From contig JAKSVH010000003.1 in NCBI GenBank assembly GCA_024408085.1, positions 81,157 through 127,894 of the forward strand: a stretch of 46,738 bases of DNA, written 5' to 3'. Below the pieces are notes generated by a model. The model made no database searches. It was not told the origin of the DNA and worked only from the letters and a program-made list of their open reading frames with translations. This DNA is from Bacilli bacterium. GTDB lineage: Bacteria > Bacillota_I > Bacilli_A > RFN20 > CAG-826. Of this stretch, positions 9,484 to 19,553 are shown piece after piece (position 1 is the first letter of the stretch; the number at the start of each line of letters is the position of its first letter). The translations under genes were made by a program, and so were the position numbers.

Positions 9484-10449
9484 ATGAATTCAGTTGGAAA
9501 TTATAATAGTCCGTATTCGGCAAAGGAAAAGTATCATATTTTATCTATGCTTGGTAATTATGATAAAGAGTTTATTTGCCATCGTTATCATTGTTCTGTA
9601 AGGTCAATTTATAGGTGGAAAAGGTTATATGATGGTTCTATTGAATCATTAGAAAATAAATCTTCACGTCCGCATAATTCACCACGTAGGCAAACGGATG
9701 AGGAAATTCTTAATATTCATAAACTCATCAAACGCAATCCAAATATTTCGTTAAATGAATTATATGGAAAATTGAGATTGAATTATGGTTATTCTCGTAA
9801 TCCGGTAACCTTATATCGTTATTTAAGAAAGATTGGTTATTTTAAGGATTTGTCTAAAACGAGAAATAACTATAAACCTAAACCTTATGACACACCGGTT
9901 CATATTGGGGAAAAATGTCAATTAGATGTAAAAGTTGTTCCTTATGAGTGTAGAGTTAAAGGTGTTCCATTTGATATGAATTTTTATCAATATACTATTA
10001 TTGATGAGGCAACACGTGAAAGGTTCATTTATCCTTACAAAGAACAATGTGCGTATTCCACGTGTGATTTTATAAGACGAGCAATCGCATTTTTTGGTTA
10101 CAAACCTAAAATTATTCAAACTGATAACGGACAAGAGTTTACATATTTGGTTCAAACTAAAAAAGATAAAGTTCATCCTATGGATTTATTGTGTAAAGAA
10201 TTAGGTATCACGCACGTATTAATTAAACCACGCACACCGCGACATAATGGAAAAGTTGAACGTAGTCATAGATCTGATAATGAAAGATTTTATAAATATT
10301 TGAAATTCTATTCTTATGATGATTTAGTTTATCAGATGAAGAATTATTTAAAACGTTCTAACGATATTCCATCGTCTGCTATTGGTTGGAAAACACCTAA
10401 TCAAATGAGAAAAGAATTTTTATTAAAAGATCTTGGTATTTTTGAATAA
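9484..10449 (+). CDS. IS481-like DDE transposase/integrase, probably the phage integration enzyme
   Basis: 321 aa. An N-terminal helix-turn-helix pair (about residues 10-110, with VRSIYRWKRLY and a second HTH around NPVTLYRYLRK) precedes an rve-type catalytic core. The DDE residues are Asp148 (QLDVK), Asp214 (TDNGQEF) and Glu259 (RHNGKVERSH). The spacing of 44 residues between the second Asp and Glu is longer than the usual ~35, because of an insertion around YLVQTKKDKVHP. AGTGAGGT seven bases ahead of the ATG matches the ribosome sites of the phage genes. There is no second IS gene and no obvious terminal repeats immediately around it, so it looks like an integral gene of the phage rather than a separate insertion sequence. 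Spiroplasma plectroviruses are known to carry transposase genes in this role. Confidence 0.75.
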   Translation: MNSVGNYNSPYSAKEKYHILSMLGNYDKEFICHRYHCSVRSIYRWKRLYDGSIESLENKSSRPHNSPRRQTDEEILNIHKLIKRNPNISLNELYGKLRLNYGYSRNPVTLYRYLRKIGYFKDLSKTRNNYKPKPYDTPVHIGEKCQLDVKVVPYECRVKGVPFDMNFYQYTIIDEATRERFIYPYKEQCAYSTCDFIRRAIAFFGYKPKIIQTDNGQEFTYLVQTKKDKVHPMDLLCKELGITHVLIKPRTPRHNGKVERSHRSDNERFYKYLKFYSYDDLVYQMKNYLKRSNDIPSSAIGWKTPNQMRKEFLLKDLGIFE

Positions 10450-14973: not shown

Positions 14974-15813
14974 TCAAATAATTTTCGCACATTGTAGTGC
15001 GTAGACGCCTGCACCCATTAGTCCAGCGCCCTCAGAAAAGTAACATTCTTTAATCAAAACATTTGGATTATCCGAACGAATTCTGTCAAAGAACATATCT
15101 TTTGCTTTCATAAGTCCGCCTGTGAAAACCATAATGTCTGGTTGGTAAGAATCTGACATAAGTTTGATGTATTGATTTAAAACTTTAACCCATTCGTTAA
15201 GTAGTTCAACTCCATCTCTTTCTTCATATCTAGCAGACTCAAACATTTCTTTTGCAGATTTGATGTTTTTTCCATTCATTTTTGCGAACTTTTCAATGTT
15301 GCAACCACCGATAGTTTCAAACTCAATCATCTGGCCTTTCCAGTTGAATAAAGTGTGGCCAACTTCAGTGACATAATCTTGAATTTTTTTATCAACGCAA
15401 AGAGCGCCTCCAAGACCTGTAGAAATGGTTACAAAAAAGACTCTATCAAATTTCTTTCCAGCGCCTAAGTAGGCTTCGCCTAAACAAGCAACTTGTGCAT
15501 CGTTTCTGAGGTAGACTGGAAGGTTAAATTCTTTCTTTAAAATTTCACCAAAATCAATGTCTCCAATATGAACATTTGGAAGGACAATAATTTTACCTGT
15601 TTCTGGGTTAACAACACCTGGTACTCCAGCGCCGATTGCAACGACATCTTCGAGTGGAAATTGTTTGATCATTTCAATGCAGTTTTCCATGAACTTTTCT
15701 TTGCTTCCAGCTGGGGTTGGAGTGACTAAATCTTTCTCGACTTCAAAGCGAGAATTGATAAGAGCTAATCTGGTGTTTGTGCCACCGATATCAAATGCGA
15801 GTACTTTTCTCAT
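14974..15813 (-). CDS. ROK-family sugar kinase (glucokinase-like)
   Basis: 279 aa from the ATG at 15813; an in-frame TTG two codons earlier is less likely. The N-terminal phosphate loop is FDIGGTNTRLALI, the ROK core contains GVPGVVNPETG, LRNDAQVACLGEAYLGAG and STGLGGALCV, and FTGGLM sits near the C-terminus. It should phosphorylate glucose or another hexose with ATP in the cytoplasm. The usual ROK zinc motif (CGCxGCxE) is not present: after the conserved GH the sequence reads TLFNWKGQMIEFETIGGCNIE with one cysteine. The promoter TTGAAA (15844-15849), 16 bases, TATAAT (15822-15827) ends eight bases before the ATG and no ribosome site is seen, so translation is probably leaderless. Confidence 0.85.
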   Translation of the reverse strand: MRKVLAFDIGGTNTRLALINSRFEVEKDLVTPTPAGSKEKFMENCIEMIKQFPLEDVVAIGAGVPGVVNPETGKIIVLPNVHIGDIDFGEILKKEFNLPVYLRNDAQVACLGEAYLGAGKKFDRVFFVTISTGLGGALCVDKKIQDYVTEVGHTLFNWKGQMIEFETIGGCNIEKFAKMNGKNIKSAKEMFESARYEERDGVELLNEWVKVLNQYIKLMSDSYQPDIMVFTGGLMKAKDMFFDRIRSDNPNVLIKECYFSEGAGLMGAGVYALQCAKII

Positions 15814-15863
15814 ACGCAACTATTATAGTAAATATAAAATATTTTTCAATTGTGGGAAACTCG

Positions 15864-15978
15864 GTGGATAACTTAGTTATATATTTAAAAAGTTTCGATA
15901 AAATGTGAAGAAAGTAAATTTTTGATGTAGATAAGTTATCCACAATTTCCAAAAAGTTAAGAATTCATCGAAACTTTT
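15864..15978. promoter_or_regulatory. Interleaved inverted repeats with DnaA boxes between ROK kinase and dnaB
   Basis: Two 12-bp inverted repeats interleave. GTGGATAACTTA (15864-15875) is matched by TAAGTTATCCAC (15932-15943), and AAAAGTTTCGAT (15888-15899) by ATCGAAACTTTT (15967-15978). The first pair carries DnaA-box sequence: TTATCCACA at 15936-15944 on the plus strand is a perfect consensus, and TTATCCACC on the minus strand at 15863-15871 has one mismatch. The block lies between the two divergent promoters, so DnaA and a second unknown regulator may control dnaB-dnaI and possibly the kinase. Confidence 0.7.
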
Positions 15979-15980
15979 GT

Positions 15981-16009
15981 TTGATTTTAGGTATTCTTTT
16001 TGATAGATT
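15981..16009 (+). promoter_or_regulatory. Promoter of dnaB-dnaI
   Basis: TTGATT (15981-15986), 17 bases, TAGATT (16004-16009), ending 11 bases before the ATG with no Shine-Dalgarno between. A very short leader is expected. Confidence 0.5.
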
Positions 16010-16020
16010 ATTAACCACTT

Positions 16021-17274
16021 ATGGATTACATATCAAAGAACGACTATTATGAAATAAGATTCGCATCAATGATTACAAACGTTGATAAAGATACGCTTCT
16101 CGAGCTTTATCAACCTCTTATTGGTGCAGCAGCATGTGCTCTTTATTTAACTATGTTAAAGCAAAAGAGAAATGCTGATGGTGGAACTATTTTCAAAATG
16201 GAACAGCTTCTTAAGACAATGCAATTAAGTGCAGATTCTTTATTAAGTGCACGTCATTATCTAGAAGCAGTTGGTTTAATTCGCACTTTTGAGTCTAAAT
16301 CCGAAGATGTACGTTGTTACATTTATCAAGTCTTTTCACCAAAATCACCAAAAGCCTTCTTTGAAGACGTCTTATTTAGCGGTCTTCTTATTCAGGCTGT
16401 TGGGGATAAGGAAGCAAAAAGACTTGCAAACAAGTACAAAGTAAATCTAACAATTCCAGAAGAATACAAAGAAGTTTCAGCTTCCTTTGTTGATGTTTAT
16501 AAACCAAATTATGATGATCCAGCATTTTTCAAAACATTTGGTCATCAAATCATTGGTAGAGACCACGGAAGAGCACAACTTACATTCAATCATGACCTTT
16601 TCTTTAAATATATAGGAGAAAACTCAGAACTTGATGCTTCTCAATTTAAGAAAAAAGACATGAAGGAAATTGAAAGACTTGCAACATTGTTTGGATTAAA
16701 TGAAAAACAAATGGCAAATATTGTTGTAAAAGAATATTGGGTCAATGGTTCCTTGCACCTTGAATTTGATAAAATCAAAAATAGAGCGGAAGAAGAAATT
16801 AAAGTTAATGTTACTCCAGTAAATGAAAAATCAAATGTATCTGGAGACAGCGATCTCGCTAGTAAAATCCAAATGATGGATGAAGTCGCACCAGCAAAGT
16901 TCCTTCAATACTTACAAAACGGAACAAAACCAGCAAGAAGTGATATTAATATCATTAATTCACTTTCTAAAGATTATGGTTTCGGAAATGGTATAATAAA
17001 CGTAATTGTAGATTACGTCTTAAATAAAAATAGCAATGTTCTCTCTAAGAACTATTGCGAAAAGATTGCATCCTCTCTCGCTAGAGAAGGTTGCAAATCA
17101 ACCGTAGACGCAATGAATTATTTAAATAAGATAAGCGTCAAGGTTACTAAAAAGGTTTCACCAAAGAAACCTGCCGCAGTTAATATTGAAGAAGAGGAAA
17201 CAGATGAAGATGTTTCCCTCGATGAAATTAACGCATTAATTGGAGAAGTGGAGGTAAAGAAGAATGTCAGATGA
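16021..17274 (+). CDS. dnaB: Replication initiation/membrane attachment protein DnaB (Bacillota type)
   Basis: 417 aa. The N-terminal winged-helix domain has the typical LYQPLIGAAACALYLTM pattern of Bacillus-type DnaB (related to DnaD), followed by a helical region with the PxxFLQYLQNGTKPARSD segment and a C-terminal DnaD-like domain (VIDYVLN-type helices, about 325-375). It is not the hexameric helicase. In Bacilli it works with DnaD and DnaI to load the replicative helicase at the origin and at restarted forks. The gene ends in TGA overlapping the dnaI start by 11 bases, so translation is coupled. No ribosome site is seen at its own start. Confidence 0.85.
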   Translation: MDYISKNDYYEIRFASMITNVDKDTLLELYQPLIGAAACALYLTMLKQKRNADGGTIFKMEQLLKTMQLSADSLLSARHYLEAVGLIRTFESKSEDVRCYIYQVFSPKSPKAFFEDVLFSGLLIQAVGDKEAKRLANKYKVNLTIPEEYKEVSASFVDVYKPNYDDPAFFKTFGHQIIGRDHGRAQLTFNHDLFFKYIGENSELDASQFKKKDMKEIERLATLFGLNEKQMANIVVKEYWVNGSLHLEFDKIKNRAEEEIKVNVTPVNEKSNVSGDSDLASKIQMMDEVAPAKFLQYLQNGTKPARSDINIINSLSKDYGFGNGIINVIVDYVLNKNSNVLSKNYCEKIASSLAREGCKSTVDAMNYLNKISVKVTKKVSPKKPAAVNIEEEETDEDVSLDEINALIGEVEVKKNVR

Positions 17275-18184
17275 ATTAAAAACATTTAATCCAAAAGATA
17301 TCATTCAAGATAAGATTGATATGAAATCTTATGCTGAAAAACTTTTAGATGCTCTTCGCGCCGACACTGAAGTTTATGAATTAATTAAACCTTTAGGTTT
17401 AACTAATAGAGAAGTTCGCGAAAATATTGGAAGACTCAATGATTTCAGAGAGGATTACAATATTTGTAAGAACTGCCCAGGATATGACAAATGTCCAAAG
17501 GCTGAAAAACATATTTCAACCTATGTTTGTAAAGATGGAAACTATCTCACAACAAGATGTGAGCCATGTAAGAAAGCAATTGAAAAAGCTAAGATTGACG
17601 CAAAGTATGTATTCAGCGATTTCCCAGCAGAATGGAAACAATCTACTCTCAAGAAATTAGATCTTAGCGAAAACAGAAGACCACTTATTAAAGAATTCGT
17701 TAATATCGTTAAAGGAAAATCGAATCGTTGGTTATTTGTAACTGGAAATCATAAGGTTGGAAAATCATATGTTTTAGTTACATTTGCAAATGAATTTATT
17801 GCAATGGGACTTGGTCAGGTTGGTGTTATCAATGCTGTTACTAAGTTCAAAGAACTTGCAGACATTTCATTCAAACAAAAAGAATACTTTAATGAACAAG
17901 TTCACGCATTATGCACACTTCCATTACTTATCATTGATGACTTTGGTGAAGAATACAAAAATGAATTCATTCGCGACTCAATTGTCATTCCAATCTTAAG
18001 CGAAAGAAATCACAACAATTTACCAACATTCTTCTCATCAGATTTTACAGTTAAAGAAATCGAAAGACTTTATTCTGTTGGCAAAAACGGTGGTGAAATC
18101 CGTGGAAAACAATTAGGAAAAATTATTCTCGAAATGGCTGAGAAAGAATTTGACCTAACAGGTGCATCTATTTACAAAAAATAG
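17264..18184 (+). CDS. dnaI: Primosomal helicase loader DnaI
   Basis: 306 aa. The N-terminal domain has the cysteine cluster Cys68, Cys71, Cys77, Cys89, Cys99, Cys102, which fits the zinc-binding helicase-contact domain of DnaI. The C-terminal AAA+ domain has Walker A GNHKVGKS (161-168) and Walker B LLIIDDFGEE. It loads the hexameric replicative helicase as an ATP-dependent clamp loader. GGAGGT lies nine bases before the start within the dnaB coding end. Its 3' end overlaps that of the convergent fpg-coaE gene by 17 bases. Confidence 0.9.
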   Translation: MSDELKTFNPKDIIQDKIDMKSYAEKLLDALRADTEVYELIKPLGLTNREVRENIGRLNDFREDYNICKNCPGYDKCPKAEKHISTYVCKDGNYLTTRCEPCKKAIEKAKIDAKYVFSDFPAEWKQSTLKKLDLSENRRPLIKEFVNIVKGKSNRWLFVTGNHKVGKSYVLVTFANEFIAMGLGQVGVINAVTKFKELADISFKQKEYFNEQVHALCTLPLLIIDDFGEEYKNEFIRDSIVIPILSERNHNNLPTFFSSDFTVKEIERLYSVGKNGGEIRGKQLGKIILEMAEKEFDLTGASIYKK

Positions 18185-19553
18185 AATCAAGTTGTTTATA
18201 TAAATTAGCGACGTCTTTATCATTTTTGATAACGTATGTCGCTTTTTTCTTATTTTCAGTGTGATAATTTTTATTTAAAGTTAAAGAAGAATCGACTTCA
18301 GAACCTCTAGCTTTTAAGTGTTCGATTTGTGATTGTTTACTTGCATCAACATAGATGATTTTATCGCAAAGTAAATCAAGTCCAGATTCAAAAAGTAGTG
18401 GAGCTTCTACAACGATTGGTTTCTTAGAATTTTTAATTTCTTTTTCGACAATTTCAGCAACTTTTGAATGAACGATTTTTTCTAATCTTGTCTTCTTGTT
18501 TGGGTTGGAAATTAAGAAGCTTCTTAACCAATCACGATCAATATCGCCTTTAGAAATTTTTAAGTCTGGAATGAACTTTTTAATCTCTTTTTGGATTGAT
18601 GGTTGTTTATATAAAATATGCACGATTTCGTCGGTATTTTGCACAAAATACCCGTGTTTTCCCAAGTATTTTGATACAGTTGACTTTCCAGTTCCGATAG
18701 GTCCAGTGACACCAATAACCTCTTTGATTGTAGGATTCTTTTGGCAATGTGGACAGTATGTTGTGCCACGTCCGTTAACGAAAATTTTTCTTAATTTGCA
18801 ACCGCATTTTGGACAAGTTCCATCTTTCTTTCCGTAGACTTTGAGGTTAACTTGGAAGTTACCAGAAATGCCTTCTTTTGGATGATAAGATTTGATTGTT
18901 GAACCACCGGCCCTAATTGCTGCATTTAAAACATCTATTGAAGCTTTCCAGATTTCATTAAGTTGCTTTTTAGAAACTAGTTTTGCAGGAGTTTCTGGAT
19001 GAACTTTAGTTGCAAACAAAACTTCATCGACATAGATGTTTCCAAGACCAGACATAATGCTTTGATCTAAAAGTGCAGTTTTAATTGCAATTGATTTGTT
19101 TTTGAATGCCTTCTCAAGAAGTTTAGAATCCTTCATCATAAAAGGATCTGGGCCAACCTTTGATAGTGGTTCTTCCTTCATATAATCTTCTAAAGAAGAT
19201 AATTTTATTCTTCCAAATCTTCTTGTGTCATTATAAATAAGTTTTGTCCCATCATTAAAATGGAAGACAACTAAATCATGTTTTGTTATTTTTTCTTTCT
19301 CATCTTTAAGGAAGTATTTTCCTTCCATTCTGAGGTGAGAAATCATAACTTTGTTATTGGTTAAATAGAAGATAATAAATTTGCCAACTCTACCGAAGTC
19401 ACTGATGGTTTCATTGATTAATGATTTTGCAAACTCTTTTGAATCACCATCAATTGTTTGCTGTCTTAAAACATCAACACTTGTAATGGTTTTTCCAAGT
19501 GTCATTTCATTTAGAATGTTTTTAACAGTTTCGACTTCTGGTAATTCTGGCAT
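18168..19553 (-). CDS. Fused formamidopyrimidine-DNA glycosylase (Fpg/MutM) and dephospho-CoA kinase (CoaE)
   Basis: 461 aa in one open frame. Residues 1-274 are a complete Fpg: catalytic Pro2 and Glu3 (MPELPEVE), a helix-two-turn-helix region, and the C-terminal zinc finger CPKCG...NGRGTTYCPHCQ with the conserved Arg. It removes 8-oxoguanine and nicks the abasic site. Residues 275-461 are CoaE, with Walker A GPIGTGKS, DEIVH, and EAPLLFESG; it makes CoA from dephospho-CoA and ATP. The usual CoaE lid Arg/Gln pattern is weak (LTLNKNYHTENKKK), so kinase activity is less certain. No ATG or ribosome site lies at the junction (near 18731). polA, mutM and coaE are neighbours in many Bacillota, so loss of one stop codon explains the fusion. 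The start follows the polA stop by two bases. Confidence 0.9.
   Translation of the reverse strand: MPELPEVETVKNILNEMTLGKTITSVDVLRQQTIDGDSKEFAKSLINETISDFGRVGKFIIFYLTNNKVMISHLRMEGKYFLKDEKEKITKHDLVVFHFNDGTKLIYNDTRRFGRIKLSSLEDYMKEEPLSKVGPDPFMMKDSKLLEKAFKNKSIAIKTALLDQSIMSGLGNIYVDEVLFATKVHPETPAKLVSKKQLNEIWKASIDVLNAAIRAGGSTIKSYHPKEGISGNFQVNLKVYGKKDGTCPKCGCKLRKIFVNGRGTTYCPHCQKNPTIKEVIGVTGPIGTGKSTVSKYLGKHGYFVQNTDEIVHILYKQPSIQKEIKKFIPDLKISKGDIDRDWLRSFLISNPNKKTRLEKIVHSKVAEIVEKEIKNSKKPIVVEAPLLFESGLDLLCDKIIYVDASKQSQIEHLKARGSEVDSSLTLNKNYHTENKKKATYVIKNDKDVANLYKQLDSIFCK

Follow-up and report, generated by a model that had tools for sequence, protein, structure and literature searches.

Between a ROK-family kinase gene on the minus strand and dnaB-dnaI on the plus strand lies a 201-bp gap containing two 12-bp inverted repeats, which raises the question of what these repeats are and how they bear on the helicase-loading genes. 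The window, i.e. the whole stretch of 46,738 nucleotides analysed here, belongs to a 1.15-Mb genome of an uncultured Bacilli lineage assembled in 37 contigs. The genes around the element are:

14974..15819, minus strand: ROK-family sugar kinase gene, the divergent neighbour
16021..17274, plus strand: dnaB, helicase loader/remodelling protein (PF07261; NCBIfam DnaB models below their cut-offs)
17264..18184, plus strand: dnaI, helicase loader ATPase (PRK08939 below its cut-off; phmmer matches to solved DnaI/helicase-loader chains)

A ROK gene precedes dnaB in many relatives, and other genes such as pfkA occupy that place in some. The window also contains a single reading frame (18168-19553, minus strand) combining formamidopyrimidine-DNA glycosylase (MutM) and dephospho-CoA kinase (CoaE), and a transposase/integrase-type gene with an rve domain (9484-10449, plus strand) approximately 5.5 kb before the element.

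Both 12-bp repeats reported by the first-pass annotation are exact and at the positions it gave: the first comprises GTGGATAACTTA (15864-15875) and TAAGTTATCCAC (15932-15943), the second AAAAGTTTCGAT (15888-15899) and ATCGAAACTTTT (15967-15978), and their order is A-B-A'-B', i.e. they interlock. When the 201-bp intergenic region was dinucleotide-shuffled 20,000 times, a 12-bp inverted repeat of any kind arose in 255 (1.3%) and an interlocked pair in none, confirming that the interlocked repeats before dnaB are real and beyond chance, as had been argued. AAAAGTTTCGAT has two exact matches in the 46.7-kb window, both in the dnaB upstream region.

It is very improbable that the interlocked arms form an RNA switch, a pseudoknot or a DNA cruciform. 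As RNA, the window sequence does give a good fold (z = -4.1), but across 16 relatives the arms pair in 59.9% of cells versus 59.3% in shuffles, compensatory changes between them show no excess, and the dnaB transcript would not include the arms, which precede the probable dnaB promoter. Structured RNA, pseudoknot and cruciform were thus rejected, as pairing between the arms is not maintained in the 16 relatives, and because of this lack of conserved pairing the arms are better read as protein-type sites. The earlier view of the interlocked repeats as one device is given up, since their complementarity is not retained in relatives. Judged from the alignments, neither A-A' nor B-B' is a conserved unit, and each is instead made of separate protein-type sites. 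The first repeat corresponds to DnaA boxes 2 and 4 with their adjoining bases, so that the proposal of a pair built on DnaA boxes holds for the boxes, including the perfect TTATCCACA, and fails for the repeat itself. The second, proposed as the site of an unknown factor, does mark a conserved site, which is in fact a 29-bp palindrome present twice (consensus AAAAAGTTTCGAT-NNN-ATCGAAACTTTTT, hereafter X) and not a 12-bp element with distant arms; B-B' is the left half of X site 1 matched with the right half of X site 2. The region is laid out as follows:

15822..15849, minus strand: promoter-like site of the divergent ROK-family gene, TTGAAA-16-TATAAT, 11/12 matches
15853..15861, minus strand: DnaA-like box 1, TGTGGGAAA, degenerate, two mismatches as read from the sequence; TGTGGAAAA or TGTGGATAA in relatives
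15863..15871, minus strand: DnaA box 2, TTATCCACC on the minus strand, one mismatch, position conserved
15886..15916, centre 15901, no strand assigned: X site 1, TAAAAAGTTTCGATAAAATGTGAAGAAAGTA, left half good, right half weak
15926..15934, minus strand: DnaA box 3, TTATCTACA on the minus strand, one mismatch
15936..15944, plus strand: DnaA box 4, perfect TTATCCACA, CACA invariant in 16 relatives
15950..15980, centre 15965, no strand assigned: X site 2, CAAAAAGTTAAGAATTCATCGAAACTTTTGT, left half weak, right half perfect
15981..16009, plus strand: probable dnaB promoter, TTGATT (15981-15986), 17 nt, extended -10 TGaTAGATT (TG 16001-16002, TAGATT 16004-16009), read from the sequence

The control region thus has one perfect DnaA box, two with one mismatch and one degenerate, i.e. 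at least two near-consensus boxes, and each of its X sites has one poor half. X site 1 has a matrix score of 11.5, while X site 2, itself a member of the training set, has the highest score of the whole window (24.7) and abuts the putative -35 box of dnaB. The probable dnaB promoter is a weak consensus match (8/12), under the promoter-scan threshold. Among 16 aligned relatives, TGTGG of box 1 and CGAT of X site 1 are invariant, and box 3 corresponds to the left arm of the relatives' palindromic pair TGTGGATAA-G-TTATCCACA.

The dnaB gene was located in 55 of 59 related genomes, and its upstream region follows a fixed order throughout the genus: a reversed DnaA box (TGTGGAWAA) with a second one about 11 bp on; an X half-site or site, whose CGAT core is present in 19 of the 21 upstream regions; the DnaA palindrome TGTGGATAAGTTATCCACA, either whole or as a single good arm; another X site, which can be recognised in about 15 of these 21; and an extended -10 near the ATG, with TG.TA...T conserved in relatives. 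In same-genus genomes the palindromic pair TGTGGATAAGTTATCCACA lies about 65-75 bp beyond the two reversed boxes, and the two X copies are 64-66 bp apart. The first-pass annotation had let its proposal stand or fall with conservation in relatives, and genus-wide both the DnaA boxes and the X sites are kept in position and sequence while the DNA between them has diverged. X at dnaB is degraded or missing in several relatives (L011-L014, L020, L021) and two sister-genus genomes, and the sister-genus genome G029 has strong X sites at oriC and a weaker one at dnaB. Several other genera of the family likewise have DnaA boxes before dnaB, usually two of them spaced about 65-85 bp apart, and X is not kept there. 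As far as these alignments indicate, the DnaA part is taxonomically wider, and X at dnaB is mainly confined to this genus, with one weak case outside.

The earlier suggestion that the second motif be sought at oriC proved fruitful, as X matches are present there in most genomes. The dnaA upstream region, adjoining an rnpA-like gene, was assumed to be oriC, and for an independent test the X matrix was trained solely on dnaB sites. The best oriC match of this matrix reached p<0.05 in 16 of 19 genomes, clear sites not being found in the other three (G002, G007 and G012). With the full 31-bp matrix, which was partly trained on oriC sites and whose oriC spacing is therefore descriptive, two sites 136-139 bp apart occur in 14 of 18 same-genus genomes. 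Because of the kinship among the genomes, combined p-values overstate significance, and the per-genome shuffle test together with the fixed position is the safer guide. Many of the genomes compared are, moreover, incomplete. In the window's own genome, TTCGATAAAATCTAAG and ATCGATTAATTC lie among DnaA boxes upstream of dnaA.

X also recurs at the opposite end of the replication cycle. On a 648-kb contig of a relative (G019), the terminus was placed near 259,456, based on the GC-skew maximum at that position and gene orientation converging there. At 260,105, close to a tyrosine recombinase gene, this contig carries a dif-like sequence (GGTTAACATAATNNNNATTATNCGAAGTT), of which 21 of 22 genomes have a single copy. 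The best dif match of the dnaB-only matrix reached p<0.05 in 18 of 21 genomes, and its top position is 22 bp before dif in 19 genomes and 23 bp in the window's own, G022 peaking elsewhere than this fixed offset. When oriC sites were also used, the X centre fell 22 bp before dif in 20 of 21 genomes, and 23 bp in the window's own. Some of these sites are weak taken singly; around dif, column conservation rises to an island over the X site, the flanks being unconserved. In 16 of 21 genomes the 130 bp preceding dif contain DnaA-like boxes with at most one mismatch, for the most part at -95/-94 (approximately 0.04 per genome expected). At G000:C1:124278-124306 (L271, L176) and in L169-L189, the single-copy dif-like GGTTAACATAATNNNNATTATNCGAAGTT has the X palindrome 22-23 bp off and DnaA-like boxes about 95 bp upstream.

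Two further X loci were found. A conserved element downstream of plsY, beside parE, has an X half-site inside the apparent plsY terminator and, in many genomes, DnaA boxes as well. The four genomes examined at rpmF, the gene for ribosomal protein L32 (L270, L272, L275 and G019:C1:285792), each have an X site roughly 100 bp ahead of this gene, with no DnaA box. In most genomes DnaA boxes occur together with X at oriC, dnaB, dif and plsY, and they are absent at rpmF. With its own dnaB site left out of training, the 648-kb contig has six of its ten best X matches in intergenic DNA, which makes up 6% of it, and one of 200 column-permuted matrices equalled this enrichment. Genome-wide profile E-values are rough, and many matches are due to chance: the strongest single match in G019:C1 lies inside dxs and was taken as a coding coincidence, and matches to the TCGATNNNATCGA pattern alone are mostly coding and were likewise put down to chance. 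A palindromic DnaA-like pair (ATCCACATTGTGGAT) was noted between hrcA-like and hemW-like genes, named from their translations (G000:C1:157612; L038). Pairs or triplets of TTAGTAGnnnnTTAGTAG occur downstream of plsY (L103-L122), before dif (L169-L189) and at several places in G019:C1, often just past the end of a gene and ahead of a reversed DnaA box, and recall DnaA-trios beside boxes. TTAGTAG pairs were discarded as a terminus mark, as they occur at several other places in one contig and are hence non-specific; a scan for exact trios found no such pair in the window.

Factor X itself is hypothetical and, inferred from its sites, is probably a dimeric, sequence-specific DNA-binding protein. 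A regulator of the CRP/FNR type, prompted by a regulator-like gene near dif, was rejected, as sites of this type have an even centre and that of X is odd. ParB was set aside because parS (TGTTTCACGTGAAACA) with fewer than two mismatches is absent from the window's genome, and the two HTH_ParB matches examined are XRE-type regulators. WhiA, suggested by ribosomal-protein promoters among the X matches, has an operator with the consensus core GAYACRCY (PMC11701221), which is absent from the X consensus. The X gene was also sought near strong X sites, where it would lie if autoregulated, and was not found, and literature searches for the motif gave no relevant report.

We consider it likely that 15853-15980 is the control region of dnaB-dnaI, with DnaA boxes interleaved with two X operators for proposed joint control by DnaA and X. 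The first-pass annotation had proposed control by DnaA and another factor, and conserved candidate sites for both do precede dnaB, though not with the interlocked repeats as a single unit. Binding of DnaA to the boxes is inferred from established DnaA biology. The X operator would be TTCGAT-NNN-ATCGAA with A-tract flanks bound by dimeric X, and an X dimer on X site 2, from its geometry against the -35 box, could obstruct RNA polymerase or make contact with it; some six helical turns separate the two X sites, which would allow them to face the same side of the DNA. Free DnaA would occupy the boxes and, together with X on the site adjoining the -35 box, form a nucleoprotein complex holding dnaB-dnaI transcription down until DnaA is drawn to newly made origins. 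The supply of helicase loader would thereby follow those DnaA and X signals that are also at work in oriC. Repression is a guess from the promoter overlap and DnaA autorepression elsewhere, and is the preferred sign, with activation as the less favoured alternative. More tentatively, X may be an uncharacterised chromosome-cycle protein of this lineage; jointly with DnaA it would mark out the origin, the promoter of the helicase-loader genes and dif (at a fixed 22-bp offset), linking initiation, loader supply and termination or dimer resolution.

DnaA might instead be the sole replication signal here, X being the local operator of an ordinary transcription factor unconnected to the replication cycle. 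This is unlikely: DnaA boxes before dnaB do reach other genera without X, and the rpmF site suggests that X can act without DnaA, but X is found again in oriC and, at a single set distance, beside dif, loci with no common metabolic theme, and stays on the dnaB side while the divergent gene varies among genomes. It is also rather improbable that the region is chiefly a DnaA-titration or recycling element of the datA/DARS type, with X in the role of IHF and a secondary effect on dnaB expression. DnaA boxes and a second factor's site do meet at several separate loci, and IHF plays such a part at oriC, datA and DARS2 (PMC10380432); against this, the element has only about four boxes, of which, in the window, one is perfect and another clearly degenerate, and it sits on a promoter with X site 2 abutting its probable -35. 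The titration site that the first-pass annotation had also proposed gained no specific support.

To our knowledge, little is known about the control of helicase-loader supply in Gram-positive bacteria. That oriC, the loader promoter and dif have a site in common points to a factor so far unrecognised, for whose isolation the 29-bp X palindrome is a ready bait sequence. It was unexpected that a conserved accessory site should keep a fixed spacing to chromosomal dif and have DnaA boxes in its neighbourhood, and X sites at oriC and dif hint that in these uncultured gut bacteria a single factor touches replication at its start as well as at its end.

Replication-gene promoters regulated by DnaA include the autoregulated dnaA-dnaN, and DnaA boxes are predicted before the Caulobacter helicase gene dnaB (PMC8203912). 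The present region resembles them in its DnaA boxes clustered upstream of a replication gene and differs in two ways: dnaB here encodes the Gram-positive helicase loader, and interleaved with the boxes is a second palindromic operator. The literature searches made turned up no account of this loader gene being controlled by DnaA. The basal unwinding system consists of DnaA boxes with DnaA-trios (PMC8287927), and shares with the present loci the boxes and, at the plsY and dif elements, TAG-containing repeats accompanying them, although the dnaB region is a promoter region and not an origin. In E. coli, IHF acts with DnaA at oriC, datA and DARS2 (PMC10380432), which likewise places sites of a second DNA-binding protein among DnaA boxes at the origin and other control loci, but the X site is a long symmetrical palindrome, and the X loci include a helicase-loader promoter and dif. 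RefZ, a TetR-family protein, binds a few nearly palindromic motifs (RBMs) at genus-conserved chromosomal positions in Bacillus, one of them near oriC, and these motifs lie mostly on the chromosome arms and serve placement of the sporulation septum (PMC6657595). X is similar in its few near-palindromic motifs at conserved positions, the oriC neighbourhood included, whereas its sites lie in oriC, at dif and before dnaB.
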